31,195 nucleotides of DNA from a virus (IMGVR_UViG_3300022751_000237:1-31195); one strand, 5' to 3'; positions 1,537 to 26,012 are shown, counted from the first letter of the stretch. The notes: generated by a model not told the origin, from the sequence alone. Translations and numbers: made by a program.

Positions 1537-2325
1537 CTAGTTTTGATAACGTTGGTCAAGATGACCACTTGATGTGAACTTAGATTTGTAAGTCCAGATT
1601 TTGCTTTTCACCAATTTTTCTGAAATGGTTCCATCGAAGTTTTTGAAAAAATTTAAAGTCTTGGAGGTGATTTCTTTTTGCTGAGCGATTGTGATTCCTT
1701 TTCCACCAGCATGGTTTTCACATAAGTTGCTAATAAAACTATCCAAACTTACGTCGACGGAAATGTATTTAGCCATTATCTTTTCCAAGTGGGTCTTGCT
1801 AAGTTGCTCAGGTTTGGAAATCGTTCCGACATCGATTCTCGATTGGATGTCACGATAAAAATCCATAATGATTTGCGTGGGAGTATCATTTGGAATGATA
1901 GCGAGGATTAGCTCCTTGTAATCTTCTAAGTCGATGATTGACCCCTCAGTAAGGACTGCTGGTCTCTTTGTTGGAGTCATAGTAATTACTTCTTGAATTA
2001 CGGGCGAATGAACTTCATTATTTTCCTTGTTATTCATGTTGCCATATTCGCTAATTGTATAAAAATAACCGCGCTTTAGTTCTGCTCTCCTCAGATACCC
2101 GCAATCCTCAAGATTTTTGAAAGACTGTTGGACTGTTTTCTTGTTCAAACCAAAACGATTGATAATAAGCTCGCGTGTCAAGTTAAAATGGTCAGCGTCG
2201 CTTAGTATGCTAACTAGAATTCTAAAATCCGTTGATGACAACCTGTTGTCATTTAATATTGCGTGATGAACTGTTGTAAATTTCCCAGCTGCATTTTCTT
2301 TTCGGATTACTTTTTTGTTAATCAT
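1537..2325 (-). CDS. Winged-helix protein, probable phage replication initiator
   Basis: A 262-aa protein whose N-terminal part (about residues 18-92) reads as a winged helix-turn-helix. It has HHAILNDNRLSSTDFRILVS, then a recognition-helix segment (NRFGLNKKTVQQSFKNLED) and a basic wing (LRRAELKRGYFYT). This arrangement is typical of plasmid and phage replication initiators and DnaD-like proteins. The C-terminal 150 residues (helical, basic near the end) are not recognised. The gene is read leftward, opposite to the virion genes, and lies about 465 bp from three regularly spaced 17-19-bp repeats. That pairing supports a role in binding an origin, although a transcriptional regulator with the same fold is a real alternative. 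No helicase or primase gene accompanies it, so replication would depend on host enzymes. Confidence 0.62.
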   Translation of the reverse strand: MINKKVIRKENAAGKFTTVHHAILNDNRLSSTDFRILVSILSDADHFNLTRELIINRFGLNKKTVQQSFKNLEDCGYLRRAELKRGYFYTISEYGNMNNKENNEVHSPVIQEVITMTPTKRPAVLTEGSIIDLEDYKELILAIIPNDTPTQIIMDFYRDIQSRIDVGTISKPEQLSKTHLEKIMAKYISVDVSLDSFISNLCENHAGGKGITIAQQKEITSKTLNFFKNFDGTISEKLVKSKIWTYKSKFTSSGHLDQRYQN

Positions 2326-3342: not shown

Positions 3343-3374
3343 ACTTTACTTTTTCCCAATGCGAAGTATTCTAT
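3343..3374 (+). promoter_or_regulatory. Phage late-promoter element, copy 1
   Basis: ACTTTACTTT is followed after 12 bases by AGTATTCTAT, and the next base begins ATG (3375). The spacer shares CCCAATG with copy 2 (5750-5782). The upstream box is identical in all three copies and the downstream box follows AGTAYTCTWT. It does not match TAnnTTTG well. I infer that it is recognised by the phage-encoded sigma factor. Confidence 0.6.
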
Positions 3375-3806
3375 ATGTATATGACGGAATCAAAGCTACA
3401 TAAAGGAAAAGTCCAACTTAAAAACTGGCAGGGATTTCCTCCGATTGAAATTCTATTTGAAGATATTGGTCAAAATGTTATCCAACTGGACGTCAAAGCT
3501 AGCGGATTGCTTAATTACTTCGGTCAAGTTGACCGAAATTTGGAAATTGATATTCACACCAATATTTTAAATTCCCTTAAAGAATACTCCAACATAACGG
3601 AACATGATTGTTCTGAAATTGGGTATTCAATTATTTTCAAACCTTCAAAGAAATTAAACAGAAAGACCAATCTTTTCGAGCTTGAAATTGAGCTAACCGT
3701 CATTTTTAAAAAACCAGTTGAAGGCGCGTATGCACACACGCTACAGCCAACAATGCAACTCATAACCGCGACAATTCTTGCGGAAATATTTTTACAAAAC
3801 GACTGA
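3375..3806 (+). CDS. Phage protein of unknown function upstream of endolysin
   Basis: From ATG at 3375 this is 143 aa, and a second ATG lies at 3381. The frame is open further upstream and could begin at TTG 3252 (184 aa). I prefer 3375 because copy 1 of the late-promoter element ends at 3374, matching its position just before the start of the protease gene. The protein is soluble and alpha/beta, and ends in a helix (QLITATILAEIFLQND). No family is recognised. It overlaps the endolysin start by one base (TGATG), implying translational coupling. Its position suggests a lysis or virion-associated role, but nothing in the sequence shows one. If the TTG start is used, the promoter element and the second G5/C5 hairpin lie inside the gene. 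Confidence 0.6.
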   Translation: MYMTESKLHKGKVQLKNWQGFPPIEILFEDIGQNVIQLDVKASGLLNYFGQVDRNLEIDIHTNILNSLKEYSNITEHDCSEIGYSIIFKPSKKLNRKTNLFELEIELTVIFKKPVEGAYAHTLQPTMQLITATILAEIFLQND

Positions 3807-4297
3807 TGGATTTAATAACTCTGGAACGCATAAAAACTATGCATCCAAAGCTTCGCGATGAACTGCTTTCAGATTATACTCATGCGAATAACAAACTTTT
3901 ACCCAAAGGTGTAAGGCTTCGATTTGCTTACACATATCGCACAAATGAAGAACAAGATAAGCTTTATAATCAAAAGCCAAAGGTCACAAACGCCAAGGGC
4001 GGTCAATCGATTCATAATTATGGTTGCGCTTTTGATGTTGTGATTTTGTTTGACAAAAACGGTGACGGAAAATTTGAAACTGCCAGTTATGCAAAAGACA
4101 AACATTGGATGGCGGTCACCAATTATTTCAAATCAAAAGGATGGGTTTGTGGTGGTGATTGGAAGTCATTTCCAGACGCGCCACATTTTGAGAAAACATT
4201 TGGTCATACTTGGAAAACACTCAAATCTAAGGTTGACAAGGAAGATTATATTACTGAAATAATTGCCAAAATAAAATACATCTATCCAAATATTTGA
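3806..4297 (+). CDS. Endolysin, M15-family peptidase (VanY/L-Ala-D-Glu type)
   Basis: A 163-aa zinc peptidase that should cut peptide cross-links of the cell wall at lysis. The N-terminal part carries the family's YRTNEEQDKLY segment (residues 44-54). Zinc ligands fit the M15 pattern: His70 in QSIHNYG, Asp77 in AFDVV and His127 in DAPHFE. The whole length is the catalytic domain; there is no signal peptide and no separate wall-binding domain, so it needs a holin or a similar route to reach the periplasm. The single-pass protein at 13977-14222 is a candidate. The ATG overlaps the stop of the preceding gene by one base. Confidence 0.9.
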   Translation: MDLITLERIKTMHPKLRDELLSDYTHANNKLLPKGVRLRFAYTYRTNEEQDKLYNQKPKVTNAKGGQSIHNYGCAFDVVILFDKNGDGKFETASYAKDKHWMAVTNYFKSKGWVCGGDWKSFPDAPHFEKTFGHTWKTLKSKVDKEDYITEIIAKIKYIYPNI

Positions 4298-4329
4298 ATA
4301 TAAATTCGACTACTTTTATAAAAAAAAGT

Positions 4330-5697
4330 ATGAAGTTAAAAAGCAAAGATTTCGTTCCAACATCAGATAGACCTTTTTTTTATTGTAAACTTGGTAGGGA
4401 AAAATATGGAAAAATTTTAACTGAATTAATTAGTTCTGCGAATGATGGATTCGTCCTAGCGATTAATAACAAATGGGGAACTGGAAAAAGTACTTTTGTA
4501 AAGATGTGGCAACAACAACTTGCAAGTAGGGAATATGAAACTATATACTTTAATGCTTGGGAGAATGACTTTGAAGATAGTCCATTAGCGGCAATTATGG
4601 GCGAGTTAAAACAAGTTACCGATAAAGCTGGTTCAGAAAAATTATTTAAGGATATGCTAGAGGCAGCATCTGTATTTGCGAAGAATTTGGTTCCTCAAAT
4701 GGTGGGTAAGTATATTGAAACAAAAACAGGAATCAAAGATTTAGGCGAGTTTGCCGAAAATGCAAGCAAAGGATTTAGTGATATGTTTTCAAAAGATGTT
4801 GAAGAATATAAAAATAAAAAGATATCCATCCGTGATTTTAGAAAGAAGCTTAAAGCATATTTAGATGCAGTAAATAATAATAAGCCTCTAATTTTTATAA
4901 TTGATGAGCTTGATAGATGCAGGCCAAATTATGCAGTATCTTTACTTGAACAACTTAAACATTTTTTCAATGTAGATGGAATTGTGTTTGTGTTATCTAT
5001 TGATAAAGAACAGCTTGGACACGCTGTTTGTGGAGTATACGGTAGCGAAAAAATCGACTCACAGGAATATTTAAGACGATTTATCGACATCGAGTACTCT
5101 TTGCCTCAACCAAGCTTAATAGATTATTGCAATTTGTTATACAAGACATTTGAATTTTCAGAATATTTTAGGAGTGACTTTAATAGGGAACTAACTTTTA
5201 AGGATAGTTTTTTAAACACAATCGAAATCCTATCAGAGCATTCTCAAATTCCTTTAAGAGTTCAAGAAAAAATATTTGCTCACGCAAGGTTTGTACTAAA
5301 CACATTTACACTTGACGAAAGCTTAAATGCTTCCTTATTTGTGTATTTAATTTATTTAAAGATTTATAATCTAAACCTTTTTAATAGTCTGAAATTTAAA
5401 GAAATTAAATTTTTAAACGTACAAGAAAAAACAGTTGCTAGGTTACTTATTAATAATCCATACATCATCGAATTGGAGGCGAATCTAGTGTTTTATTATA
5501 ACATCTACACGGGAAATACTGCTTTTATAGTTCAAAGACAAGAAGTGACAATTTCCTCGTTAATAGACAATAAAAATCATGATGGAGTAAACTTCAAGGA
5601 AATTATAAAAAAATTGCACGATAATAATAAAAACAATAACATTCTTCAGGAGTTGTTCAACAGAATTGATATGATTGAAATAGGCTCAGAAATATAG
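4330..5697 (+). CDS. KAP-family P-loop NTPase
   Basis: A 455-aa protein with a Walker A motif NKWGTGKST (residues 47-55), the family segment FNAWEND (74-80) and a Walker B motif LIFIIDELDRCRP (187-199) followed by the LLEQLKHFF helix. These are the signatures of KAP NTPases. Many family members have membrane helices in the NTPase insert, but this one has only a weakly hydrophobic stretch near residues 111-128. KAP proteins include phage-exclusion factors such as PifA of plasmid F and many uncharacterised defence candidates on mobile elements. Here the gene sits between endolysin and head genes, where no virion function is expected, so I infer cargo that may block other phages. The frame is open from TTG 4294, which overlaps the endolysin stop; ATG 4330 is preferred because the family domain begins soon after it. 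It ends with TAG. Confidence 0.85.
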   Translation: MKLKSKDFVPTSDRPFFYCKLGREKYGKILTELISSANDGFVLAINNKWGTGKSTFVKMWQQQLASREYETIYFNAWENDFEDSPLAAIMGELKQVTDKAGSEKLFKDMLEAASVFAKNLVPQMVGKYIETKTGIKDLGEFAENASKGFSDMFSKDVEEYKNKKISIRDFRKKLKAYLDAVNNNKPLIFIIDELDRCRPNYAVSLLEQLKHFFNVDGIVFVLSIDKEQLGHAVCGVYGSEKIDSQEYLRRFIDIEYSLPQPSLIDYCNLLYKTFEFSEYFRSDFNRELTFKDSFLNTIEILSEHSQIPLRVQEKIFAHARFVLNTFTLDESLNASLFVYLIYLKIYNLNLFNSLKFKEIKFLNVQEKTVARLLINNPYIIELEANLVFYYNIYTGNTAFIVQRQEVTISSLIDNKNHDGVNFKEIIKKLHDNNKNNNILQELFNRIDMIEIGSEI

Positions 5698-5728
5698 TTT
5701 TTATCTTTTTAATTAGAAAATATTTCAT

Positions 5729-5746
5729 CCCTAAGAATAATTAGGG
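5729..5746. other. Small hairpin ahead of the late promoter
   Basis: CCCTAA and TTAGGG pair around GAATAA, immediately upstream of late-promoter copy 2. With no T-run after it, its effect as a terminator of the KAP transcript is doubtful; it may simply insulate or flank the promoter. Confidence 0.3.
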
Positions 5747-5749
5747 GAA

Positions 5750-5782
5750 ACTTTACTTTAACCCAATGTGATAGTACTCTTT
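5750..5782 (+). promoter_or_regulatory. Phage late-promoter element, copy 2
   Basis: ACTTTACTTT, 13 bases, AGTACTCTTT. The ATG of the protease gene starts only 5 bases after the second box, so a transcript starting at the usual distance would have almost no leader. The spacer shares CCCAATG with copy 1. It heads the largest virion gene cluster. Confidence 0.7.
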
Positions 5783-5787
5783 CTTTA

Positions 5788-6867
5788 ATGAATGGGACAA
5801 TCTACATAAGCGGTGAAATTGGAGTTAATACAACTCTGTTGGATGTAATCAAGCAAGTTAAAGCGCAACCACAAGCTCAATCATATCTTGTAAAGATTGA
5901 TAGCAACGGTGGCTATGTTGATGCTGGATTTGCAATCTACGATTACTTAAAAAATCTCGGTAAGCCAGTTACTACTTATACCACAAAGGCTTACAGCATC
6001 GCTAGCGTTATCTTCATGGCTGGTTCAATTCGAATCATCCCAGAAAACACTCCAGAAGCTCTGATGATTCACAATCCGTGGATGGAGGTTGCTGGTGACC
6101 AACAAACCCTTGCAGAATACGCGAAAGACCTAAAAAAGACAGAAGATGAGTTGATTGAATTCTATTCAAAAGCTGTCGAAATCCCAGGACAAACAATCCA
6201 AAATCTTCTTAAGAACGAAACATTCTTAAATGCCACCCAAGCTAAAGAACTAGGCTTTGCAACACAACTTCAAGTTGCTTCAAAAGCGGTGGCAAAACTA
6301 CATAACAAAGACAAAGACGAAAAGAATTTCATGTCAAACTACGGAAAACAGATTACAGAAATCTGGAACAAAGTCGTTGGTAATCCAACGGCCAAAAATG
6401 AATTAATTCTTCAAGATGCAACAGGAGAAGTTGAAATAAAATTCACCGAATTGGAGCCAACAGATGTCGCAGAAGTTGGAGCAATCGCAACAGTAAATGA
6501 TGAACCAGCAAACGAAAGCTACTTAATGCCAGATGGACAATCATTGGTATTCGTGGCGGGGGAATTGACTGAAATCATTCCAGCTGAGGAAACTGGGGAC
6601 GAGCCAGCAGATGAAGAGGAACCAGAAGCATCTGCTGAACAAAGCCATGCAATTGACTTTACCGCAAGATTAGATGAATTAGAGAATAAACTTTCTGAAA
6701 TCATCAACAAAATGGTTGAAAACCAAGACCAAGTTGCTGCAAGCGTAAAAGCGTTGGCTAAATCAATTGGTTCAGACTACTCAACCAAGAATACAAACGA
6801 AAAGGTATCAGCGGTGGCAAAAGCTAAAGAAACTGCAACTCCTAAATTTTCTATTAAAAGAAAATAA
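5788..6867 (+). CDS. ClpP-type prohead protease with scaffold-like C-terminus
   Basis: A 359-aa protein. Residues 1-160 are a ClpP/S14-like protease: SNGGYVDAG (39-47), the nucleophile Ser70 in AYSIAS, and the active-site His95 in MIHNPW. The remainder, from about 185, is acidic, rich in Glu, Ala and Pro (about 240-285), then a predicted coiled coil (RLDELENKLSEIINKMVEN, about 291-309) and a basic end. This layout fits a prohead protease fused to a scaffolding domain, as in several phages where protease and scaffold share one gene. It would act in immature capsids, cutting scaffold and possibly capsid protein. It precedes the major capsid gene by 33 bases. No other ATG is available until residue 77, so the start very close to the promoter is firm. 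Confidence 0.85.
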   Translation: MNGTIYISGEIGVNTTLLDVIKQVKAQPQAQSYLVKIDSNGGYVDAGFAIYDYLKNLGKPVTTYTTKAYSIASVIFMAGSIRIIPENTPEALMIHNPWMEVAGDQQTLAEYAKDLKKTEDELIEFYSKAVEIPGQTIQNLLKNETFLNATQAKELGFATQLQVASKAVAKLHNKDKDEKNFMSNYGKQITEIWNKVVGNPTAKNELILQDATGEVEIKFTELEPTDVAEVGAIATVNDEPANESYLMPDGQSLVFVAGELTEIIPAEETGDEPADEEEPEASAEQSHAIDFTARLDELENKLSEIINKMVENQDQVAASVKALAKSIGSDYSTKNTNEKVSAVAKAKETATPKFSIKRK

Positions 6868-6900
6868 TAACACGAATACGCTAGAAAGAATAAAAAAAGA

Positions 6901-7944
6901 ATGGCAAATTTCAATTTTGATAACGTAACGTTATCGCCAAAAGAGGTTCAAGAATTATCAAAAGTGATTTTTGAAGCTGCATTTACAAACCCAGCATTGG
7001 CAGAAATGCACGATATCGTTGAAGGAATCGATATGAAAACTCAAATCCTTTTGATGTCATCAATGGGATTGGTGGGTAAATCTGCTGCAGGTTGCACACC
7101 AGAAGATTCAGATGCTGGAATTGTTGCAACAGAAAAATTCTGGGAAAACAATCAGTTAGACATAAGAATCCCTTATTGTGTAAAAGACCTTCCAGCTTTA
7201 CTTAAAGCTTTTGGTCAAAAATCTAATAAGTATGATGTTGAAGGCTCAGAGGAAATCAAATTGATTGCTTCAAGACTTTTAGAAGCATTAGACGAAGCAA
7301 TCTTGAGGTTGACATGGTTTGGAGATAAGCAAGCAAATGTTGTAGCAAGTGGCGGTACTTTAAACAGTCCAGCAGTTGTTGACTATTTCAATACTGTTGA
7401 CGGAATTTGGAAACAGATTTTCACTGGCGTTGCATCAAGCACAATCCAAAGAGCTACAATCGCTTCAAACACGGGTACAACATATTCAGCACAGGAATTG
7501 AAAGATGGTGAAGCTTTGACAGCAATGAGAAAAGTTTATAACCAATCAGATACAAGATTGAAAAATCATGGTGAAGGAATCTTTATCGTAACGCAATCTG
7601 TTTATGACAATTTCATGGATAAATTAGAGGATGCTGGATTAAATGCTGTTGGTTCATTGGCTATTAATGATGGTGTTATGACCTATAGAGGAAAAAGAAT
7701 AATCGTTGCTGACTTTATGGACAGAATCATTACCTCTTACATGGATAATGGTACTAAATACAATCTTCCAAACAGAATCGTTTACACAATCAAAAACAAC
7801 ATCCCAGTTGGAACATTGGATGTGAATGAATTCAAGGATTTGAGTGTTTGGTACGACAAAACAGATAGAAAAGTCTACACGGAAAATATTTTCAGTTTGG
7901 ATGCAAAAGTCCTTGAAGGATACTACATCTCTGTAGCATATTAA
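6901..7944 (+). CDS. Major capsid protein
   Basis: A 347-aa protein directly after the protease/scaffold gene, the standard place for the major head protein. Its composition (mixed alpha/beta, no Cys-rich or membrane segment) and segments such as RIPYCVKDLPALLKAF, FIVTQSVYDNFMDKL and YRGKRIIVADFMDRII suit the HK97-type capsid proteins of Bacteroidota phages. There is no long N-terminal delta domain, consistent with the scaffold being on the protease protein. A hairpin follows the stop codon and may lower read-through into later genes, so that capsid is made in excess, which is an inference. Confidence 0.82.
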   Translation: MANFNFDNVTLSPKEVQELSKVIFEAAFTNPALAEMHDIVEGIDMKTQILLMSSMGLVGKSAAGCTPEDSDAGIVATEKFWENNQLDIRIPYCVKDLPALLKAFGQKSNKYDVEGSEEIKLIASRLLEALDEAILRLTWFGDKQANVVASGGTLNSPAVVDYFNTVDGIWKQIFTGVASSTIQRATIASNTGTTYSAQELKDGEALTAMRKVYNQSDTRLKNHGEGIFIVTQSVYDNFMDKLEDAGLNAVGSLAINDGVMTYRGKRIIVADFMDRIITSYMDNGTKYNLPNRIVYTIKNNIPVGTLDVNEFKDLSVWYDKTDRKVYTENIFSLDAKVLEGYYISVAY

Positions 7945-7949
7945 TAACA

Positions 7950-7970
7950 GGGTGGCATCATCTGCCACCC
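7950..7970 (+). terminator. Hairpin after the capsid gene
   Basis: GGGTGGCA and TGCCACCC form a perfect 8-bp stem around TCATC. A-rich, not T-rich, sequence follows, so it is probably a weak terminator or an RNA end-stabilising element of the capsid message. Confidence 0.5.
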
Positions 7971-8002
7971 AAAAAATAACAAGAATGAGAACATAATTAT
8001 AA

Positions 8003-8584
8003 ATGGATTGTATTTCAAAACTGACTGCCAACATTTCATACGATTGCACACCAGCTGGAAGAGCTAAAGCAGGACTTGAGACAAAGGCAGTTTTAATAAA
8101 TAAATCTGATATTGACTTGACAGCATTGACTTCATCTGGAGCAACAGTTACTAATCTATCACTTGTTTCTGGCTCGACTGGATTCAAAATCGATTGGGCT
8201 AAGCAACTTGGAAACACTGCTTCGGAGTTTGCTGCAAATGATTCTGGAGTCGATACTTTCACTCATAGCTTTGCTTGTAGAGTTTTTGGTCAATCTGCAG
8301 CTGATGCAGAAAGGGTAAGAGAATTATCCGCTGGTGAGTTTGTCGTGGTTGTAGAGTCGAAGTGGAAAGGCGCAAACAATGCATCGGCTTTCAAGGTTTT
8401 CGGAATCGAGAATGGATTGAAAATGAGCGAAGGTTCATTCACATCATTGGAAAATGATGGCTCATTTCTTTTTACGCTTTCTAGCGTCGAAGGATTTGGT
8501 GAAACATACCCTTTCCAAGTTTACTCTGAAACTTCTTATACCGCTACTAAAGCCAAATTTGATGGCTTGTTTACTACGGTATAA
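8003..8584 (+). CDS. Probable tail tube or other structural phage protein
   Basis: A 193-aa protein that looks beta-rich, with alternating polar and hydrophobic stretches and Ser/Thr/Gly content typical of virion proteins (FKVFGIENGLKMSEGSFTSL in the middle). Family assignment is by context and look: it follows the major capsid gene and is isolated by hairpins on both sides, as highly expressed structural genes often are. A major tail tube protein is the best guess, since none other is evident among the tail genes. A head decoration protein is an alternative. Confidence 0.5.
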   Translation: MDCISKLTANISYDCTPAGRAKAGLETKAVLINKSDIDLTALTSSGATVTNLSLVSGSTGFKIDWAKQLGNTASEFAANDSGVDTFTHSFACRVFGQSAADAERVRELSAGEFVVVVESKWKGANNASAFKVFGIENGLKMSEGSFTSLENDGSFLFTLSSVEGFGETYPFQVYSETSYTATKAKFDGLFTTV

Positions 8585-8602
8585 ACAAATAATAATACAA
8601 AG

Positions 8603-8642
8603 AAAAAGGTAGGTAAGGCATTTGTCCTACCTACCTTTTTTA
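8603..8642 (+). terminator. Rho-independent terminator
   Basis: GGTAGGTA and TACCTACC pair over 8 bp, extended by flanking A5/T5 pairing, and end in a T-run. This is the strongest terminator inside the head cluster. Partial read-through must still supply portal and later genes, unless another promoter lies downstream that I did not find. Confidence 0.7.
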
Positions 8643-8658
8643 TTTAAACGATAAAAAT

Positions 8659-8946
8659 ATGGCTTGCACAAGTTGTAAAAAAAAGACTGAAATATCTGAG
8701 AAATTTGTTCCTAGCGTTGGGGATTTCTCACTAAGAAATACTGGCGTTCACCAAATCAATTTTGGTTCTGATTTATTCATTTCGAATGCAAATATGACAA
8801 ACCAATTGGCAATCCAATTCTTAAAGGAAAACCCAAATCGAATCTCATTGTTTGAAACATTTCCCGCCAATTGGAAAGACCTTGTAAATCCAAAACAAGT
8901 TGAAACCGAAATAACAAAAGTTAAGGTTACCCGCAAAAGTAAGTAA
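8659..8946 (+). CDS. Small hypothetical phage protein, 95 aa
   Basis: A short protein with an N-terminal Cys pair (ACTSCKKK, residues 2-9) and a C-terminal basic stretch. The middle (QLAIQFLKENPNRISLFE) is likely helical. Only two nearby cysteines are present, so a zinc site would have to form between subunits. It shares the TAATG overlap with the portal gene and so is probably translated with it. A head-completion or portal-associated role fits its position, but no family is recognised. Confidence 0.6.
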   Translation: MACTSCKKKTEISEKFVPSVGDFSLRNTGVHQINFGSDLFISNANMTNQLAIQFLKENPNRISLFETFPANWKDLVNPKQVETEITKVKVTRKSK

Positions 8947-10097
8947 TGAGAGTTAAACTGATAAATGTAGATAACCGTTTGAAAATAAAATTTGATAAGA
9001 CTGACGGGATTTACAATTGGGGTGACGACAATGCTTATCCTTCGCTAGTTAAAAGCTTGATTGGTTCATCAGTTACCGCACGTCAATGTGTGGATATGAA
9101 TGCCAAATATATCTACGGTAAAGGATTTAAGTTTGTTGACTCTGTATTGGATAAATCGTTGCTTGTTGTAAACAAAAAAGAACATTCTTTAAATCAACTT
9201 TTAAGGATTGTATCAAAAGAATTTGCTGAACAAAACAACATATTTCTTCATGTTAACTACAATAGTCTATTTGAGGTGACTAGCGTTGATTTATTGCCCT
9301 GTACGGATGTTAGAATTGGCAAGAGCGATTCAACTGGCTACAGTGGAAAATTTGTCAAATATAACAATTTCGATAAGAGCAAAGACAAGAATGTGAAATC
9401 GGAAGATTTTGCCATTATCGATAGGTTAAACATGAATTCATCTGTTATCCAAGCGCAAGTTGATGCAGCGGGCGGTTGGTCAAAATATAAAGGGCAAATC
9501 CTTCACGTCACATCTGATTTCTCAGAATTGTATTCACTTACGGATGCTGATTCAGTTCTGCTAGATTGTGATTCAGAACATCAAGCATCATTATATAAAA
9601 ATAGCGGACTCAGAAAGGGATTTTTTGGAGCCAAACTTTTCATCACCAAAAAGTTCAGCGATGACGATGAGCGAGATGATTTTGTTAAGACTATAGAAGA
9701 TTTAAAAGGTGCAGAAGATAGCAACGGAATCCTCCATTTGGAAGCAGACCTTGAAACTGATGTATTGAGCGAGCAAATGCTTATCCAAAACATAGACTCA
9801 AATATTGATGACAAAACTTTTGAATCGACTGAATCTTCAACGTCAAGAAATATCAGGAAGGCATTCGGTGTACCAGCTATTCTCTTGGAAGATTCTGATA
9901 ATTCAATTTTTGGTAACAGCGGTGAGCTGCTTATCCAAGCTAAAATGATGCATTGGGAGAATAAGGAGGAAGAAAGAAATATAATAACGGAAGCCTTTGA
10001 GAAAGTTTTCTCAAGATTCCATGTAAATCTTAATCCAAATAATGATTGGACTGTAAAGCCTATCATCGATGTTAAAGCCGATAATATAAATGAATAA
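8946..10097 (+). CDS. Phage portal protein
   Basis: A 383-aa protein with the portal pattern. The N-terminal half starts with a wing-like region (QCVDMNAKYIYGKGFKF, about residues 47-63). The C-terminal half carries the conserved stem/crown segment RNIRKAFGVPAILLEDSDN (about 300-318), followed by a long charged helix (KMMHWENKEEERNIITEAF). It would form the dodecameric ring through which DNA is packaged and to which the tail connects. It overlaps the stop of the previous gene and the start of the next, so the three are likely coupled. Its length is at the short end for portals, but no piece appears to be missing. Unusually, the terminase genes lie downstream of it. Confidence 0.8.
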   Translation: MRVKLINVDNRLKIKFDKTDGIYNWGDDNAYPSLVKSLIGSSVTARQCVDMNAKYIYGKGFKFVDSVLDKSLLVVNKKEHSLNQLLRIVSKEFAEQNNIFLHVNYNSLFEVTSVDLLPCTDVRIGKSDSTGYSGKFVKYNNFDKSKDKNVKSEDFAIIDRLNMNSSVIQAQVDAAGGWSKYKGQILHVTSDFSELYSLTDADSVLLDCDSEHQASLYKNSGLRKGFFGAKLFITKKFSDDDERDDFVKTIEDLKGAEDSNGILHLEADLETDVLSEQMLIQNIDSNIDDKTFESTESSTSRNIRKAFGVPAILLEDSDNSIFGNSGELLIQAKMMHWENKEEERNIITEAFEKVFSRFHVNLNPNNDWTVKPIIDVKADNINE

Positions 10098-10605
10098 AAT
10101 AATCACAGTTGAAGAAATTGCTCAGATAAAAGATTTGGGCAAAAAGCTTGATGTAAACAAGATTAATCCAATCATTGAGCAAGCTCAAGATATTGAATTG
10201 AGAGACTATTTAGGGATGAAATTCTATTTTGAAATTCTCTCCAATATTGAAAGCCCGGACTTTCAAGATTTGCTATCTGGTTCAACATTTGTTTTTGAAG
10301 GAATAAGCTATTCTCAACAAGGCATAAAATCAATGCTTGCTGACCTATTTATGGCTCGCTTTATACCACAAATGAATGTGAATGTTACTCCTTTTGGAGT
10401 AACTGTAAAACAGTCTCCAGATAGTGAACCAGCTGACAGAAATTCGCTTAAAGACCTTGCTCAAATGCAGCGAGAAGCCGCTGGAAGCAAGTGGGAAATC
10501 ATCAAGCTTTATTTGAAATCCAACAAGGCTTTATTCCCAATTTATAATTCTAAACCAGATACAATAGCGACTGGTGAAAGAAGACTGAAATTCAGAAAAA
10601 TTTAA
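10090..10605 (+). CDS. Head-tail adaptor/connector protein
   Basis: A 171-aa, mostly helical protein. The segment ELRDYLGMKFYFEILSNIES and the Asp/Leu-rich helices fit the connector-type proteins found after portal genes in Bacteroidota phages. I infer a head-completion role joining portal and tail. It overlaps the portal gene by 8 bases and the fibre start by one base (TAATG). The family is assigned from memory and position only. Confidence 0.6.
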   Translation: MNKIITVEEIAQIKDLGKKLDVNKINPIIEQAQDIELRDYLGMKFYFEILSNIESPDFQDLLSGSTFVFEGISYSQQGIKSMLADLFMARFIPQMNVNVTPFGVTVKQSPDSEPADRNSLKDLAQMQREAAGSKWEIIKLYLKSNKALFPIYNSKPDTIATGERRLKFRKI

Positions 10606-13600
10606 TGCAAATATTCGAAAATTTTGATGGCTCAACCTTCAAATTAAATTCAAAGAAATATGTAAAAAACTTCATTGTAATGCCTGTTGGAACTACTTCA
10701 ATTGCCATATACAATGCCTATGATACCAGCTTGCAGTTGTTGCCAGCGACAAGCTACAAAGACATCAAAGTTAACAACGCAAGCTTCCAAAGCCAGCAAA
10801 CTTTGATGGAAGTTCTTTCACCTATGTTGTTCTCAAAAGTGGTCTATTCTGATGGTATCTTGCCAAATCAGATTATCTATTTGAGCGAGATGAACAGACT
10901 TGGGAACAGGCTTGCAATTCCAGCTGGATGTATTTGGCGAATTGACGGAATTGTTTTGTCAAATGATTCATCTTTTTTCACAGACATTGCCCCAGCAACT
11001 GACGGATTCCACCGTATTGACATTATTGTTGCTAAATCGGACTCAACATTTGAGAAAATCCAAGGTGGCGAAAGCTCAACAGTTGCAACGGCTCCATTTT
11101 TGCCACCAAATTCATTATTAGTTACCACAATCAATATTTCTGGAAATGAAATAAACGACGGTAATGAGCCTATTGTTGGTAGTTTGTATATTGAGAAAAC
11201 GGATGAAGCGATTGTGATTGAAAGCAGAATTGGGGAAATCACAATTGACATTGATGTTGACGGGAAAAATAAATATAAAATTACCGATGCTGATGTAATA
11301 CTTGGATTTTCTGCAAATTTAATTTCACGCGCAGCAATGTGGACGGGAAAGCCTTATTTCGTAACCAATACAAGAAATACATCAATTAAATTAAAACATA
11401 ATACCTCCAACATATATGGATTTTCATTTCCTTCCCATGAAGATATGATTTTGCCAGCTGGTGGAACAGCTATGTTTTATTTCGACAAGAGGATGATATA
11501 TGTCGGATTGGAGTTCAAAAAGTACGCGTCACTCGATTCAAACGGAAAAGTACCTTTGAGCCAGATAAATGATGCTTTGCTTGGTAATGTTAACTATCAA
11601 GGTTTGTGGAATTCTGCTACAAACGCGCCAGATTTGACTGTTGTAGGAACAAAAGGTCATTACTACATAAACACTGTCAGTGGCATTCAATTTGGCAAAT
11701 ATTGGGAAAATGGTGATTGGATTATATCGGATGGAAATGATTGGGCAAAAGTAGATAACACTGATGCGGTTTCAAGTGTCGCTGGAAGAACGGGAAATAT
11801 TATTTTAACTAAGGACGATATTGAAGGATTAACTGCAACATTGGCGGCGACTGCTGTAGATTCAAACGTAGTTCACAAACTTGGAAATATAACCGAATCA
11901 ATAAACGGTGAAAAGACATTTACATCACCTATGAAAGTTAATCCAACTACGACAGAACCAAGCTTGATTGTAACTAGCACCGCTGGGCAAGGTGCATATA
12001 CCACTATGCAAATTAATGGACCATCTTTTTCAAATAATGATGGTTTGCAAATTAGGCAAGCAACTGACGGTCGAGTTGAAATTAAAAATATGTCCACTAT
12101 TGGCGGTAATACGGTGATGATTGGTAATAGAAACCATAATCACCTTATCCTTAATAATGACGGGACTTCTACCTTTAATGGAAAAGTCAAAGGAGTTGAA
12201 GCTACAAATCCGAATGAATTTACGACACTTTCACAAGTTTCAACTAAAATCACAAATGGTGGTCAAAACGGAGCAATCAGTATTGGGTCATTAAACGGTT
12301 ATATAGCTCAATTAACTGGATATTGGGATTTTCAAGGAATTGCGGGATTAACGCTTCCATCATTTAGTATGCCTAACAATTCTCAAATAATAAATGGATT
12401 AAATGGCGGTGGTATTTTCAAACTTTATTTAGGTGATACCGATTATAAAACACCTTACATTTCAAAGAATCAAGCTGGGTCGCGACCAACATTTGAATTC
12501 ATCGATGAAAATCCAGATTCTACTGGTGATATTGTAACATTCAAAAACTCGGATGGCGTAGTAGCAAGAATGTTTCACAATGGAGATTTTGCGGCCAAAA
12601 GGTTTTACGGTGAAGGTTTTATTGCCGACAATGGAACTACTAGCGTAGAGATGAGACATTTTTCACCAAGTGAGCCAGCTATTTTTTTCAACGGAATTTA
12701 CAGAATGCTTTACGCTGCAAATTATGGGATAGTTTATAATGTGGGTAGCGGTGAAAATCAATCGTGGAGAATTAATAACGACCCTTACAACCAGATGGAA
12801 TTTAATTCTTCAAGAGAATTAAGACTAGGATATGCAACTGCAGAAACTTCAACAGGAGAAAAATTGCAAGTGAATGGAAAGGGTATGTTCAACGGAACAG
12901 TGAAAGGCTTGCCAGCGACACTTCCTACAGAATTTGTAACGAAAGCGCAACTAGATTTACTTGGCTCTGGCCAATCTAGTTCTGGGCTTGAGAAAATTAC
13001 TCAAGAAGGTAAAAGCGGTTGGAGATTGAAAGGTATTGATGCACAAAATTATGGAAGTGTTGGTCAAAATTCTTTGGATTTATCTGTCAACAATGGAAAT
13101 GCAGGACAAGGAAATGGAGCGACTGGTGACAACTCTTCAATATTGGGTGGTCAATTCAATAAAGCTATTGGTGAATTTTCGAATATTCTAGGTGGAGATT
13201 TTAATATTGCTAATTCAAACTACTCTACAGTCATTGGAAGGGTAAATACTATTGGCACTAATGCTGATGCATCAATAGCAATTGGTAGCCAAAATGAAAT
13301 CTTTACGGGTTCTTATAACGCAAATGCAATCGGATATGGCAATTATATTTATGGTCAAGAAGCAACTGCAATCGGTTCGTTAAACATTGCTAGAAGTTTC
13401 AGAGAGACTGTTTTGGGTTCTTGGTCATCTGATGTCGCTGGAAGCACAAATACTTGGGTTGCAACTCAACCGATTCTGAGAGTTGGGATTGGAACCAGCA
13501 ACAGTGACAGGAAAGATGCTTTACGCATTTATAAAAATGGAAATGTTGAATTAACTCAGACATTGCCATCTGGTGGGAGTGACGCAACTCAAGTTCTATT

Positions 13601-13976
13601 TCGAAATAATAATGGTGTAATAGTTCAAAAACCAAGTGATGCTATTTTCTTTAGAAAAGAACTGTCAAATAAGTCACCGACTGTTGTTACTTACACATTA
13701 GCTCAAACAGACGAAAGATGGATTGTTCAATTCTTTTCTGACAGCCCAGTTACCGTAACTGTGCCAGCATCAATTGTTCAGACTACACGATTCGAAATTA
13801 GACAAATGGGACTTGGACAAGTTACAATCGTTGGGGCAAGCGGAGTGATTTTAAAAACAATAACTGGAAAAACACCAAGCACGATTAGCCAATATGGTCT
13901 TGTCACTTTGGAACAGACTGGCTCTGTTTCTGGGAATACTTGGATTGCCAGAGGAGATTTAGCTAATGCAGTATAA
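10605..13976 (+). CDS. Large tail fibre/receptor-binding protein with YadA-like head repeats
   Basis: A 1123-aa structural protein. Residues 1-320 form an N-terminal attachment region. About 328-385 hold a Trp- and Tyr-rich module (NYQGLWNSATNAPDL, GHYYIN, DGNDWAKVD), followed by SSVAGRTGNIILTKDDIEGL, a linker common in phage fibres. Two similar blocks occur near residues 520-545 (FNGKVKGVEATNPNEF) and 760-780 (FNGTVKGLPATLPTEF), indicating internal duplication. About 843-935 contain repeats of the ILGG..N.A / AIG..N type, as in the left-handed beta-roll heads of trimeric autotransporter adhesins. The protein probably trimerises and contacts the host surface. It lies between the portal module and the holin-like gene. 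No intramolecular chaperone is seen at the C-terminus. Confidence 0.8.
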   Translation: MQIFENFDGSTFKLNSKKYVKNFIVMPVGTTSIAIYNAYDTSLQLLPATSYKDIKVNNASFQSQQTLMEVLSPMLFSKVVYSDGILPNQIIYLSEMNRLGNRLAIPAGCIWRIDGIVLSNDSSFFTDIAPATDGFHRIDIIVAKSDSTFEKIQGGESSTVATAPFLPPNSLLVTTINISGNEINDGNEPIVGSLYIEKTDEAIVIESRIGEITIDIDVDGKNKYKITDADVILGFSANLISRAAMWTGKPYFVTNTRNTSIKLKHNTSNIYGFSFPSHEDMILPAGGTAMFYFDKRMIYVGLEFKKYASLDSNGKVPLSQINDALLGNVNYQGLWNSATNAPDLTVVGTKGHYYINTVSGIQFGKYWENGDWIISDGNDWAKVDNTDAVSSVAGRTGNIILTKDDIEGLTATLAATAVDSNVVHKLGNITESINGEKTFTSPMKVNPTTTEPSLIVTSTAGQGAYTTMQINGPSFSNNDGLQIRQATDGRVEIKNMSTIGGNTVMIGNRNHNHLILNNDGTSTFNGKVKGVEATNPNEFTTLSQVSTKITNGGQNGAISIGSLNGYIAQLTGYWDFQGIAGLTLPSFSMPNNSQIINGLNGGGIFKLYLGDTDYKTPYISKNQAGSRPTFEFIDENPDSTGDIVTFKNSDGVVARMFHNGDFAAKRFYGEGFIADNGTTSVEMRHFSPSEPAIFFNGIYRMLYAANYGIVYNVGSGENQSWRINNDPYNQMEFNSSRELRLGYATAETSTGEKLQVNGKGMFNGTVKGLPATLPTEFVTKAQLDLLGSGQSSSGLEKITQEGKSGWRLKGIDAQNYGSVGQNSLDLSVNNGNAGQGNGATGDNSSILGGQFNKAIGEFSNILGGDFNIANSNYSTVIGRVNTIGTNADASIAIGSQNEIFTGSYNANAIGYGNYIYGQEATAIGSLNIARSFRETVLGSWSSDVAGSTNTWVATQPILRVGIGTSNSDRKDALRIYKNGNVELTQTLPSGGSDATQVLFRNNNGVIVQKPSDAIFFRKELSNKSPTVVTYTLAQTDERWIVQFFSDSPVTVTVPASIVQTTRFEIRQMGLGQVTIVGASGVILKTITGKTPSTISQYGLVTLEQTGSVSGNTWIARGDLANAV

Positions 13977-14222
13977 ATGGATAGTAATATAGAAATAGGT
14001 AGCTGGTTACTACAACAAGCACCAGTTATTGTAGTAATGGGAGTTGTAATTTGGTGGCTCGCTAAACGCCTTGTAAAGGCAGAAGATGAAAAGGATTTGT
14101 TATCGAAAGATGTTATCAAAATTTCAACTCTTTGGGAATCAAAAGCTGATAAAATGGATGGAAGCAAAGAGGAAATCTTGAAGCTTTTGGCGGAAATAAA
14201 ACAAATCGTAAGTTCAAAATAA
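13977..14222 (+). CDS. Single-pass membrane protein, holin-like
   Basis: An 81-aa protein with a short N-terminus, one strong membrane helix (about residues 12-30, APVIVVMGVVIWWLAKRLV) and a charged, likely coiled-coil C-terminal half (KADKMDGSKEEILKLLAEIK). The layout resembles small class III-like or XhlA-like holin-associated proteins. The endolysin of this phage lacks a signal peptide and would need a partner of this kind, although it is encoded about 10 kb upstream. It starts directly after the fibre stop. A different membrane role is possible. Confidence 0.55.
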   Translation: MDSNIEIGSWLLQQAPVIVVMGVVIWWLAKRLVKAEDEKDLLSKDVIKISTLWESKADKMDGSKEEILKLLAEIKQIVSSK

Positions 14223-14377
14223 TGAGAAAAATATATGATATACTATTCAAAAAAAGAGATAACCAAACTTACTTAACTGCTCAAGATAAACTTTGTCTCA
14301 TAAAAAAAATTTTGGAAGAACACCCTCCAAAAATAATTAAATACAAGGAAATATATGTAACCGAAGTACATTTCTAA
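14222..14377 (+). CDS. Small hypothetical protein, 51 aa
   Basis: A short frame whose ATG overlaps the stop of the holin-like gene (TAATG) and which ends just before a terminator. It reads MRKIYDILFKKRD at the start and is basic, with no clear membrane helix. Its position at the end of the operon, the overlapping start and the immediately following terminator support a real gene, perhaps a lysis accessory protein. No family is recognised. Confidence 0.5.
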   Translation: MRKIYDILFKKRDNQTYLTAQDKLCLIKKILEEHPPKIIKYKEIYVTEVHF

Positions 14378-14381
14378 AAAG

Positions 14382-14407
14382 AAGCCGCTGGATCAGCGGC
14401 TTTTTTT
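14382..14407 (+). terminator. Rho-independent terminator ending the head/fibre operon
   Basis: AAGCCGCTG and CAGCGGCTT form a 9-bp perfect stem around GAT, followed by a run of seven T (14401-14407). It separates the capsid-fibre-holin unit from the terminase-tail unit. Confidence 0.85.
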
Positions 14408-14416
14408 ATGGTCACG

Positions 14417-14448
14417 ACTTTACTTTCTGGATTTTGAAAGTACTCTTT
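14417..14448 (+). promoter_or_regulatory. Phage late-promoter element, copy 3
   Basis: ACTTTACTTT, 12 bases, AGTACTCTTT, directly after the terminator and 23 bases before the small terminase ATG. The boxes are identical to those of copy 2, but the spacer is unrelated, which points to the two boxes as the recognised parts. Confidence 0.7.
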
Positions 14449-14471: not shown

Positions 14472-15005
14472 ATGAGTGATGAGACTAAAAAGACGAGCGG
14501 GCGACCGTTTAAAATGGAGAATTGGGTTGCCGAACTTAAAAAGGTTTTAGCAACCGAAGACATATTGTTTTTGAGCGACAAAGACCTTCAATTTTTGGTA
14601 AACCAAAATCTTGAAGAAAAAGACAGAATCACTGACAGGACATTTGAAAATTGGAAAGGCGGGAAATTCCATCCAGATGAGGAAATCGGAAAGGAATTTA
14701 TGTCTTGCATACACCTTTCACTTATCAAACAAAAACAAGAAATGTCGCGTAGGATGCTTGGTGATGATGACAAGAACTGGACACGATTTGCTTGGGTGAT
14801 GGAAAGAAAATTCACTGAATGGAATTTAAAACACATCAGTGAAAATATTAATAGGAGTGAACACCAAACTACTATTCAGATAACAGCGGCCAACGATGAG
14901 CAAAGGATGTTAATCGACAAAATTATTAATGTAGACTTTGAAGAAATCAAGACGAAAGGGATTGATGAATCAAACGATAACAAAAGCGAAGACTATGATT
15001 TTTAA
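14472..15005 (+). CDS. terS: Terminase small subunit
   Basis: A 177-aa protein directly before the large terminase, with the start of the latter overlapping its stop by one base. It is largely helical. An N-terminal DNA-binding region (about residues 13-70, including TDRTFENWKGGKF) is followed by a helical oligomerisation region and an acidic, disordered C-terminus. It would recognise phage DNA for packaging and recruit the large subunit. The assignment rests on position and general layout. It is the first gene after late-promoter copy 3. Confidence 0.75.
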   Translation: MSDETKKTSGRPFKMENWVAELKKVLATEDILFLSDKDLQFLVNQNLEEKDRITDRTFENWKGGKFHPDEEIGKEFMSCIHLSLIKQKQEMSRRMLGDDDKNWTRFAWVMERKFTEWNLKHISENINRSEHQTTIQITAANDEQRMLIDKIINVDFEEIKTKGIDESNDNKSEDYDF

Positions 15006-16183
15006 TGCCAATCCAACCAACAACTTGCTTTGAGAAAATTGCAAAGCTTGACAAACCAATTAGAGTTATCCAAGGCGGGACATCAGCTGGTAAGACCTAT
15101 TCAATCCTTTTATATCTCATCTATTTTTGTTTAAATCCTAAGAGAAAACTGTTAGTGTCAATCGTTGGTGAAAGTCTTCCAACATTAAAGCGTGGTGCAG
15201 AAAAAGACTTTTATAATATCCTCAAAGAAAATAGTTGGTATGATGAAAATAATCACAACAAAACCGACCGTACTTACAAGATTGGAAACTCTATCATAGA
15301 ATTTTTTAGTGCTGATGATTCATCTAAACTGAGGGGTTCACGTAGAGATTTGCTTTTTTGTAATGAGGCAAATAATATATCATTCGAATCCTTTTCAGAG
15401 CTTAATGTTAGAACAAGGCTTTTTTCTATTCTCGATTATAACCCAACCTCTCCATTTTGGGCAACAACCGAATTAGTCGGTCAAGATAACGTTGATTTTT
15501 TATGTGTCACATATAAAGACAACCAATTCCTTGAACAGAAAATCATCGATGAAATTGAAAGCTGGGAGAAAAAAGGTGAAACATCTGACTTCTACGCCAA
15601 CAGATGGAAGGTGATGGGATTAGGTTTGATGGGGCAGCAAAGCGGTGCAATTTTCAATGATTGGGAAATCATTGACTCCTTGCCAGAAAATGCTCAATTG
15701 TTAGGTTCGGGAATGGATTTCGGATTTTCACAAGACCCAACCTCACTAATATCAGTTTACAGATATGACGGTGAAATCATCGTCGATGAAGTGATTTACC
15801 AGAAAGGACTTTTGAACAGTCAAATTGGTAATCTTATCAAATCATCCAATTCAAAAAATGCTGTTGTTTACGCTGATTCTGCTGAGCCGAAATCAATTGC
15901 AGAATTAAGAAGTTATGGCCTAACGGTAATGCCAGTTTTCAAAGGAAAAGATAGTATCAATTATGGAATTAGCTTGATTCAAGAAAACCCCTTTAAAGTG
16001 ACCTCAAGGTCAATTAATCTGATAAAAGAGTTGCAAAATTACACATGGGCAAAAGACAAAGAAGGAAATCCTCTGAACATCCCAATCGATAATTGGAATC
16101 ACGGATTAGATGCACTAAGATACTTTTATTTAATGAGAATGAGTAAGAAGTCAACAACGTTTGCATTGAAATGGAGAAGATAA
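15005..16183 (+). CDS. terL: Terminase large subunit
   Basis: A 392-aa packaging motor of the PBSX/Terminase_3 type. The ATPase domain has Walker A GGTSAGKT (residues 24-31), Walker B DLLFCNEA (115-122) and a coupling motif LDYNPTSPFW (143-152). The nuclease domain has acidic positions in GMDFGFSQDP (Asp239), YADSAEP (Asp292) and NHGLDALRY (Asp370). It translocates DNA into the prohead and cuts concatemers. The length is normal for the family and all key residues are present. The last 13 bases overlap the next gene. Confidence 0.93.
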   Translation: MPIQPTTCFEKIAKLDKPIRVIQGGTSAGKTYSILLYLIYFCLNPKRKLLVSIVGESLPTLKRGAEKDFYNILKENSWYDENNHNKTDRTYKIGNSIIEFFSADDSSKLRGSRRDLLFCNEANNISFESFSELNVRTRLFSILDYNPTSPFWATTELVGQDNVDFLCVTYKDNQFLEQKIIDEIESWEKKGETSDFYANRWKVMGLGLMGQQSGAIFNDWEIIDSLPENAQLLGSGMDFGFSQDPTSLISVYRYDGEIIVDEVIYQKGLLNSQIGNLIKSSNSKNAVVYADSAEPKSIAELRSYGLTVMPVFKGKDSINYGISLIQENPFKVTSRSINLIKELQNYTWAKDKEGNPLNIPIDNWNHGLDALRYFYLMRMSKKSTTFALKWRR

Positions 16184-24162: not shown

Positions 24163-24279
24163 ATATACCTAAACCAGCCAAACAATATCAAAAACACCTA
24201 TTGTAAAAAATAATTTAAAAAAAGATGAAAATAAAAGGTCGTTTGCTTTTTGTCAGACTATTTATAATAAACACAGAGA

Positions 24280-24408
24280 ATGAACGTGAAACATTTTGAT
24301 GAAGAACTTGATGAACTATTAAAGCATATCAGGCGATTAAAACAGCGAGCCATTGACAATTTGGCTCAAAATATCTCAAAAAGCAGCAAGCCGAGGGAGA
24401 AAAAATAA
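24280..24408 (+). CDS. Small hypothetical protein, 42 aa
   Basis: A short charged, helical frame (MNVKHFDEELDELLKHIRRL at the start, then SSKPREKK at the end) lying between the tail terminator and the HNH gene. The acidic-then-basic helical pattern and its position ahead of co-oriented genes make it plausible. It overlaps the upstream extension of the HNH frame, which I therefore do not accept. No family is recognised. The bases before it (24163-24279) show no clear promoter beyond a weak TATAAT. Confidence 0.45.
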   Translation: MNVKHFDEELDELLKHIRRLKQRAIDNLAQNISKSSKPREKK

Positions 24409-24430
24409 CAAGAGTACCAACAACAAATAT

Positions 24431-24922
24431 ATGAACTCTAACCAAAAAACCAATGAAAGCTGGAAAGCTATAAACTCAACATCTTACGAAGTTTCTAATC
24501 TAGGAAGAGTAAGAAATAATTATAACAATGGAACTTCTAGCGTCCTAACTCCATCATCAAATGGTCAAAAGAAAAATGACTATCTGTTTCACATTATTGG
24601 TGGAAAGAAATATTATGTTCACCAACTGGTGTTACAAGCATTTGAAGGAGATAAGCCAGACGGATATGAATGTGACCATAAAGACAGAAACAAACTGAAC
24701 AATGACATCTCAAATTTGAGATATATCACAATAGCTGAGAACCGTTCACATAAAGGTGAGAATCACCCCAATTGTAAGCTGAACAATAAGAAGGTAAGGG
24801 CGATAAGATTACTGCCATTTTTGGTCGAAGGCGTGACCAATAAGAAGATTGCCGATATGTTTGAGGTATCAGCCAACACAATCTCTGCGGTAATAAAAAG
24901 AAGAAGCTGGAGCCATATCTAA
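24431..24922 (+). CDS. HNH homing-type endonuclease with NUMOD4 and HTH
   Basis: From ATG 24431 this is 163 aa. Residues 10-29 (SWKAINSTSYEVSNLGRVRN) are a NUMOD4 motif. Residues 63-105 form the HNH nuclease (VHQLVLQAF, then ECDHKDRNKLNNDISNLRYI, with His64, Asp82/His83 and Asn95). Residues 118-160 are a helix-turn-helix (NKKIADMFEVSANTISAVIK). This order is that of free-standing phage homing endonucleases, which cut a specific site and spread by copying themselves. The frame is open from TTG 24353, but the domain starts after the ATG. It lies just after the tail operon and overlaps the sigma gene start by one base. Confidence 0.85.
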   Translation: MNSNQKTNESWKAINSTSYEVSNLGRVRNNYNNGTSSVLTPSSNGQKKNDYLFHIIGGKKYYVHQLVLQAFEGDKPDGYECDHKDRNKLNNDISNLRYITIAENRSHKGENHPNCKLNNKKVRAIRLLPFLVEGVTNKKIADMFEVSANTISAVIKRRSWSHI

Positions 24923-25689
24923 TGTCAAGTAATGAGAATTATTTTAAAGAACTATCCAAGCTGTCAAGATTAAGTGAAGAACAAATCCGAGCCGAAGCCA
25001 GATTGCTGAAGCTTGGAGACCTTCAAGCATTGGATAAAATTGTAAACGCCAATTTGAGATTGGTGGTGCATATTGCAAAGAGATACCAAAAAGCAATTGA
25101 GAAAGTTGAAATCTTTGAATTGAACGATTTAATTAGTGAAGGAAATTATGGATTAGTACAAGCTGCCAAAAAGTATGACCCAGACCGTGGAGTGAATTTT
25201 GGATATTATGCAAGCTTTTCAATCCAAAGTAAAATAATTGATTTCATAATTAATCATCAATCCACAATCCGCTCGCCATATAATAAGATGAAGACGGATT
25301 CCAAGATTCGAAAGGTTGTAAATGAGTTATTTCAAAAACTAAACACTGAAATAGGGGCGGAGCAGCTAAAAGATTTGGGAATATTTACAGACGATGAAAT
25401 CAAACATTTCTTTGAAAAGACAGAAGTAGTTCCCTACGAAAATTACTATGACAGCGAAGAGGAAATTGAAGATTTAGAGTTTCAAGCAACACAATTTGCA
25501 ATGATGAAAAATGCTTTAAAATTCCTTAAACCAAATGAAAGATTCGTCATCAAGAAATTCTTTGGAATTGACTGTGAAAGAATGACCCTGTTGCAAATTG
25601 CAAAAGAGCGCGGAGTTACCAAATCAAGGATTGGGCAAATCAAAAAAATAGCTTTGGAAAAGCTAAATCAATTGATGAAAAATAAATAA
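24922..25689 (+). CDS. Phage-encoded sigma-70 family factor
   Basis: A 255-aa sigma factor. Region 1.2/2.1 is around residues 12-56 (ALDKIVNANLRLVVHIAKRY). Region 2.2-2.3 is at 69-97 (DLISEGNYGLVQAAKKYDPD). Region 4 is at about 199-253 (LKPNERFVIKKFFGID, then TLLQIAKERGVTKSRIGQIK). In RpoD the segment after SYA reads WWIRQ; here it is YYASFSIQSK (95-104), so the aromatic promoter-melting pair is changed. There is no region 1.1, and the part corresponding to region 3 is short and acidic. Such a factor is expected to direct RNA polymerase to phage-specific promoters. The three two-box elements upstream of the late units are the obvious candidates, an inference. It is likely co-transcribed with the HNH gene. 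Confidence 0.85.
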   Translation: MSSNENYFKELSKLSRLSEEQIRAEARLLKLGDLQALDKIVNANLRLVVHIAKRYQKAIEKVEIFELNDLISEGNYGLVQAAKKYDPDRGVNFGYYASFSIQSKIIDFIINHQSTIRSPYNKMKTDSKIRKVVNELFQKLNTEIGAEQLKDLGIFTDDEIKHFFEKTEVVPYENYYDSEEEIEDLEFQATQFAMMKNALKFLKPNERFVIKKFFGIDCERMTLLQIAKERGVTKSRIGQIKKIALEKLNQLMKNK

Positions 25690-25781: not shown

Positions 25782-26012
25782 ATGACAAGATACCAATTAC
25801 TAAAAGACAATGAAGATATTGTATTCCAATTTATAAAAGCGGGAGTATTATCTTTTCAAATAATAAGGGATATCGAAATTTTTGAAACATTTCAAGAAAT
25901 CCCACTCAATAACAATGAAGCTAAATATCTTTTGCTTGGAGACCAATATGAACTCTCAGCCAAAAGGATTGAACAAATAATTTATCAAATGATGAAACTG
26001 GCTTATAAATAA
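25782..26012 (+). CDS. Small HTH-like protein, 76 aa
   Basis: A small, mostly helical protein. Its C-terminal half (LLLGDQYELSAKRIEQIIYQ) resembles the helix-turn-helix of sigma region 4 and of Mor-type regulators. A role in phage gene regulation together with the sigma factor would suit it, but the match is short. A stretch unlike the AT-rich surroundings (TCGCGCGGGG, around 25756-25765) precedes the gene; I recognise no promoter. The start is taken at the first ATG after an A-rich run, usual for Bacteroidota. Confidence 0.6.
   Translation: MTRYQLLKDNEDIVFQFIKAGVLSFQIIRDIEIFETFQEIPLNNNEAKYLLLGDQYELSAKRIEQIIYQMMKLAYK

Follow-up and report, generated by a model that had tools for sequence, protein, structure and literature searches.

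The 31,195-base IMG/VR virus record IMGVR_UViG_3300022751_000237 (the whole of which is here called the window) represents a temperate-looking siphovirus of the Flavobacterium type (Bacteroidota, ~30 kb) and contains three copies of a two-box element, situated before the first genes of its lysis, protease/capsid and terminase/tail units. We consider it very probable that these are late promoters, read by the host core RNA polymerase together with a sigma factor that the phage itself encodes (24922-25689). Several computational observations carry this reading: the elements themselves, which recur before orthologous genes and are confined to prophages; a conserved sigma gene; boxes that have diverged in concert within individual genomes; and the absence of the elements from relatives that lack the sigma gene.

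Three two-box elements in the window

The pattern ACTTTACTTT-N12/13-AGTAYTCT has exactly three matches in the window (3343-3372, 5750-5780 and 14417-14446), all on the + strand, against 0.00 expected from dinucleotide shuffles, and the upstream box ACTTTACTTT on its own likewise occurs as three exact copies. Judged by boxes and spacing, the elements are sigma-70-type promoters of the form TTTACT-N16/17-TAYTCT, with the predicted start (+1) placed 7 nt downstream of the final T of the -10 box. The predicted promoters and the genes that follow them are:

3343..3374, + strand: late promoter copy 1, lysis unit; -35 TTTACT 3345-3350, 16 bp, -10 TATTCT 3367-3372, predicted start 3379
3381..3806, + strand: first gene of the lysis unit, ATG 3381
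3806-4297: M15 endolysin, following the first gene of the lysis unit
5750..5782, + strand: late promoter copy 2, protease/capsid unit; -35 TTTACT 5752-5757, 17 bp, -10 TACTCT 5775-5780, predicted start 5787
5788..6867, + strand: ClpP-type head maturation protease, first gene of the capsid unit, ATG 5788
14380..14410, + strand: intrinsic terminator closing the capsid/fibre unit, just 5' of copy 3; GC-rich hairpin and T-run
14417..14448, + strand: late promoter copy 3, terminase/tail unit; -35 TTTACT 14419-14424, 16 bp, -10 TACTCT 14441-14446, predicted start 14453
14472..15005, + strand: small terminase candidate, first gene of the packaging/tail unit, ATG 14472
15005-16183: large terminase, following the small terminase candidate

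A sequence-only reading of this DNA had proposed three copies with identical upstream boxes, each ahead of the first gene of an endolysin, a protease/capsid or a terminase/tail unit, and a strong terminator directly before the third, and on all of these points it agrees with the features above. It had also drawn attention to CCCAATG in the spacer, which copies 1 and 2 do have in common but which the spacers of relatives do not conserve; these vary, and we reject CCCAATG as a functional part and regard it as probably incidental. Just 5' of the protease promoter, the window (at ~5730-5747) and several relatives have a palindrome, CCTAA..TTAGG, which is a possible operator or weak terminator. No Rfam family was found within the window.

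Conservation of the elements in related phages

The nearest annotated phage is Cellulophaga phage phi46:1, whose gene order of protease, capsid, portal and terminase matches that of the window. Closer relatives were found by searches with the terminase as bait, and comprise viral contigs (L026-L030, L106 and L169-L173; large terminase identity 66-75% for the close relatives) as well as prophages in eight genomes of Flavobacterium, among them those of F. muglaense, F. aquaticum, F. hibernum and F. sedimenticola. Searches with the window's sigma protein alone found no relatives, and a genus-wide sigma profile search, which returned mostly host RpoD, was not used for counting prophages. Where the same phage was present as a contig and in a genome (L028/L145, L172/L146 and, by its matches, L170/L143), one of each was compared.

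In these relatives the small-terminase gene is preceded by TTTAC(A/T), a spacer of 16-17 bp and TATWAT with AG or GG directly before it; the same element lies before their protease and lysis genes, and the layout of a terminator followed by a promoter at the terminase is common among them. A matrix constructed from the terminase sites of the other genomes only, with the window excluded, puts the window's three sites in the top three places among all window positions on both strands. Fourteen of the 15 close relatives contain between one and five sites scoring at least 16 on the late strand, for which shuffled sequence gives no more than 0.10 each. The window's best site scores 11.4 on the family matrix because its -10 has changed, its three sites nonetheless heading the ranking, and L171 falls below 16 because its -35 has changed. 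A scan of IMG/VR with the window's exact boxes returned 13 contigs with a single match each and did not reveal the relatives; it was of no use because the relatives use TATWAT.

The distance from the predicted +1 to the protease ATG is 0-3 nt in all ten genomes compared (1 nt in the window), the predicted start of the window's lysis unit is 2 nt before ATG 3381, the predicted terminase leaders are mostly 14-37 nt, and the predicted +1 is an A in most cases. The protease mRNA would, on these predicted starts, be leaderless; in F. psychrophilum leaderless transcripts make up only 5.5% of the mapped mRNAs (PMC9723704).

Most relatives (L028, L029, L030, L141-L144, L147 and L148) have a further strong element of this type between two head genes, with its predicted start at the 5' arm of a terminator hairpin; at the corresponding place in the window (8603-8640) the hairpin is kept and there is no clear promoter. 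In most relatives the gene that follows the large terminase contains a strong matrix match, which we do not accept as a promoter because it lies in the conserved codons FTI..FYGII, where synonymous conservation is ordinary (0.547 vs 0.561).

A sigma factor encoded by the phage

The likely reader of the three promoters, as judged from sequence comparison, is the product of the following gene:

24922-25689, + strand: sigma-70-family factor with regions 2 and 4 (Pfam region 2, 1.2e-12; region 4, 1.4e-7)

Both regions score above the curated Pfam cut-offs. The protein matches the PHROG 'RNA polymerase sigma factor' at 7e-41, its family profile matches RpoD in PDB at 3e-42, and its predicted fold (mean pLDDT 75, pTM 0.45) resembles those of sigma-S and sigma-A in a Foldseek comparison; it looks like a complete, small RpoD/RpoS-type factor extending from region 2 to region 4. 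Wherever the sequence of a close relative extends that far, the gene is found after that for the tape measure. Structures of sigma region 4 place E585 (E. coli numbering) in contact with the third position of the -35 box; both this residue and R588 of the host factor are lost in all of the phage sigma factors, and the third -35 position in the phages is a T, not a G.

The promoter type and the sigma gene occur together. No protein with sigma-70 region 2 (PF04542) was found in phi46:1, FPSV-S2, BS-TP3 or TCUEAP1, and no sigma gene was seen beside the tape gene in the Tamlana prophage L149; none of these five has a site scoring at least 16, compared with the one to five in each of 14 close relatives. 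The promoters are present in close relatives that have the sigma gene and absent from the five that lack it.

Several phages with ~50% terminase identity (L036, L039, L050, L072, L080, L100 and L101) give weak to clear matches to sigma region 2, in short proteins whose genes lie elsewhere than in the close relatives, several of them near the terminase gene. These contigs have none of the promoters described here, nor is another motif apparent in them by eye; perhaps they carry another set of phage sigma factors with promoters of their own.

Concerted divergence of promoters and sigma factor

If the sites of one phage share a reader, their boxes should change together, which is not expected of homologous sites inherited separately. 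We compared 48 protease, terminase, head and lysis sites from 15 genomes, excluding the coding match after the terminase. Likeness of the -35 boxes is 0.936 within a genome and 0.815 between genomes, and that of the -10 boxes is 0.853 and 0.795 respectively; in neither case did any of 5000 label permutations reach the difference, a strong figure but not an exact one, given the manual curation of the sites and the relatedness of the genomes. With the window, L171 and L173 removed, the -35 result is still reached by none of 3000 permutations, and the -10 result by six of 3000. A reader common to all sites of a phage would account for this likeness.

These three phages provide the plainest examples. 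In the window the -10 box is TAYTCT in all three copies; in L173 the G before the -10 box is replaced by C or T at three of three sites; and in L171 all four copies, the coding match included, have TTCAA (TTCAAWA) as their -35 box. The helix of region 4.2 in the L171 sigma factor reads STRR, where the others have TRQR or the like (RQ to TR).

Confinement to prophages and contrast with host promoters

The exact family pattern (TTTACW, 15 bases, RGTATWATT) was searched for in nine whole genomes (eight Flavobacterium and one Tamlana; 36 Mb). There are 29 matches, of which 22 lie inside prophages that amount to ~0.3 Mb in all, making the pattern ~400 times denser there than in the rest of the genomes; a few of the 22 are the post-terminase coding match, and the pattern itself was defined from these phages. 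Controls over the same genomes, with the pattern reversed or its spacer lengthened by one base, gave three matches each.

Flavobacterium sigma-A promoters are of the form TTTG/TAnnTTTG (PMC6847099, PMC9723704), and the sigma inventory of F. psychrophilum consists only of sigma-A, sigma-54 and extracytoplasmic function (ECF) factors (PMC9723704). The host -7 box TAHHTTTG matches none of the three window sites, and neither the -24/-12 GG..GC boxes of sigma-54 nor the CGT box of ECF factors in the -10 region is found in them; a host-type promoter is present in the window at 1135-1164, before an early-side gene. The sequence-only reading had remarked on the poor fit to the flavobacterial housekeeping promoter and had proposed a late regulon under phage control, which would be called into question if the genes of related phages were conserved without the boxes. 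The boxes are kept before the orthologous protease, small-terminase and lysis genes, are absent where the sigma gene is absent and are nearly absent from host chromosomes, all of which supports that proposal.

Alternative explanations

The late promoters might instead be served by host sigma-A, with a phage activator (Mor-like or another helix-turn-helix protein) occupying ACTTTACTTT where a -35 box would otherwise be, in the manner of Mor and C of phage Mu. Activators that stand in for -35 boxes are common in phages, and a conserved protein of 75-76 amino acids, with a weak Mor-family match in seven of eight members, adjoins the sigma factor. We think this improbable, however, since the -10 boxes (TATWAT or TAYTCT) are without the TTTG that host sigma-A needs (PMC6847099), and ACTTTACTTT, at -36 to -27 with a spacing of 16-17 bp, is placed like a -35 box and is not a dyad of the Mor/C type; moreover the -10 box also varies with the genome, which an activator binding upstream would not by itself predict. 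There is still less to recommend the idea that the elements, instead of being promoters, act as operators or bind some other protein, a lysogeny repressor for instance. The phage does look temperate, with a Cro/C1-like protein, a serine recombinase and prophage relatives, and in some relatives the CCTAA..TTAGG palindrome is just 5' of the protease element, but the -35/-10 geometry, the fixed strand and the location just 5' of first genes are those of promoters, as are the A at most predicted starts and the constant short gap to the protease ATG; we regard an operator role as very unlikely. Chance repeats or copied DNA with no regulatory role can hardly be entertained: single boxes are common by chance in an AT-rich genome, but the paired boxes are not produced by shuffling, they are kept over many genomes while the spacers are not, and they are concentrated in prophages, so that for practical purposes the comparative data refute this explanation.

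Some observations nonetheless weigh against a phage sigma factor as the reader, or as the sole regulator. The -10 boxes of the window depart from the family consensus and its sites score only ~11, and L171 has no site before its small terminase. The sites used for co-divergence were picked with the matrix, curated by hand and drawn from related genomes. The association of sigma residues 584/585 with the -35 base is weak when taken alone (Fisher p ~0.05-0.07, with no correction for the tree), and we do not rely on these tests. The Mor-like protein encoded at 25782-26012 could also take part in regulation.

A second class of element and a possible cascade

The sigma gene is itself preceded by a distinct element, here called M, which approximates to TGTCTTTT-N11/12-GATATTTATTA (CTTTT-N-TATTTAT type) in 15 genomes including the window. 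The features of the window that concern it, and the protein encoded downstream of sigma, are:

24237..24267, + strand: M element, 5' of the HNH/sigma unit; GGTCGTTT-N12-ACTATTTATAA
2435..2465, - strand: second copy of the M element, with the same boxes, 5' of a replication-initiator-like gene
1537..2325, - strand: replication-initiator/DnaD-like helix-turn-helix gene, downstream of the M element
25782..26012, + strand: conserved 76-amino-acid protein, downstream of sigma, weakly like the Mor activator

The two M copies of the window carry identical altered boxes. With a matrix made from the M sites at sigma genes, another 18 sites emerge from the whole set where 1.8 would be expected; almost all of them are in the left arm and on the minus strand, and several are 5' of replication-initiator-like genes. 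This distribution suggests that the M elements form an earlier tier that would switch on the replication and sigma genes together, as the upper part of a two-tier cascade. The 76-amino-acid protein, whose Mor-family matches fall below the curated cut-off, is a candidate second regulator; in L146 its reading frame continues from that of sigma with no intervening stop.

In the order of events that we propose, host polymerase with sigma-A would transcribe the early genes, which is the least supported step. The M elements would then switch on replication and the phage sigma factor, ahead of the late units, and this factor would direct the host core polymerase to the three late promoters, region 4 reading the -35 box TTTACT and region 2 the -10 box TAYTCT, 16-17 bp downstream. 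Since host sigma-A prefers TTTG/TAnnTTTG, the lysis, protease/capsid and terminase/tail units should be silent until the phage sigma is made. Both the binding of the sigma factor to these boxes and the late expression of the three units are inferences.

A broader picture can be drawn, which we offer tentatively and think somewhat doubtful in its entirety. This would be a family of Flavobacterium prophages with its own promoter grammar and a two-tier cascade, in which the TGTCTTTT-N11/12-GATATTTATTA class, perhaps driven by the Mor-like protein, would turn on the replication and sigma genes before the sigma factor acts on promoters of E. coli-like type, foreign to the host; each lineage would have shifted its sigma factor and all of its late promoters together, such that cross-firing of late genes between related prophages may be lost, and the protease mRNA would be leaderless by design.

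Relation to known phage and host systems

Phage sigma factors for late genes have long been known, as in T4 (gp55) and SPO1 (gp28 and gp33/gp34), where they redirect host core RNA polymerase to phage-specific promoters before virion genes. The window resembles these phages in encoding a sigma-70-family protein and in placing a promoter foreign to its host, in several copies, ahead of virion and lysis genes. It differs in that its sigma factor is apparently a complete RpoD/RpoS-type protein, which we propose reads a full -35/-10 promoter, and in belonging to a ~30 kb temperate-type siphovirus of the Bacteroidota. With the Bacteroidota sigma-A (sigma-ABfr) it shares the sigma-70 family, two-box promoters and presumably the same core polymerase (PMC6847099, PMC9723704), but the phage boxes are nearer to the E. 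coli TTGACA/TATAAT than to those of the host, and E585 and R588 are missing from the -35-reading helix of the phage factor.

Sigma factors of the same family, with 26-33% identity to that of the window, are represented by PHROG 351, Salisaeta icosahedral phage 1 and Klebsiella prophages; for none of these did the open literature searched yield a mapped regulon. Phage phi46:1 has the gene order of the window but neither the sigma-70 region 2 protein nor the promoter sites. Nor did we find a phage sigma factor with its regulon in Bacteroidota in the open literature, most subscription papers lying outside the search. What appears to be new here is an RpoD-like, seemingly complete sigma factor in small temperate phages, E. 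coli-like promoters that the host would not use, and their visible co-divergence.

Late gene control in Bacteroidota phages is nearly undescribed. More than 12 natural sigma-promoter pairs appear to have changed together, in one case with a complete change of -35 box, and they are material for understanding how sigma factors read DNA. The promoters should be silent in the host alone and, with their sigma factor, may lend themselves to controlled gene expression in Flavobacterium, a host in which E. coli promoters fail.

Two further genes lie within the units discussed here. Between the tape-measure and sigma genes is an HNH endonuclease gene with a NUMOD4 motif (24353-24922), which is also at this position in L173 and probably in the G246 prophage; because it was not detected there in the other relatives, it is probably mobile. 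The lysis unit contains a gene for a P-loop NTPase-like protein of 467 amino acids (4294-5697; PHROG 8614), for which no homologue was detected among the syntenic relatives and which is possibly an accessory gene.

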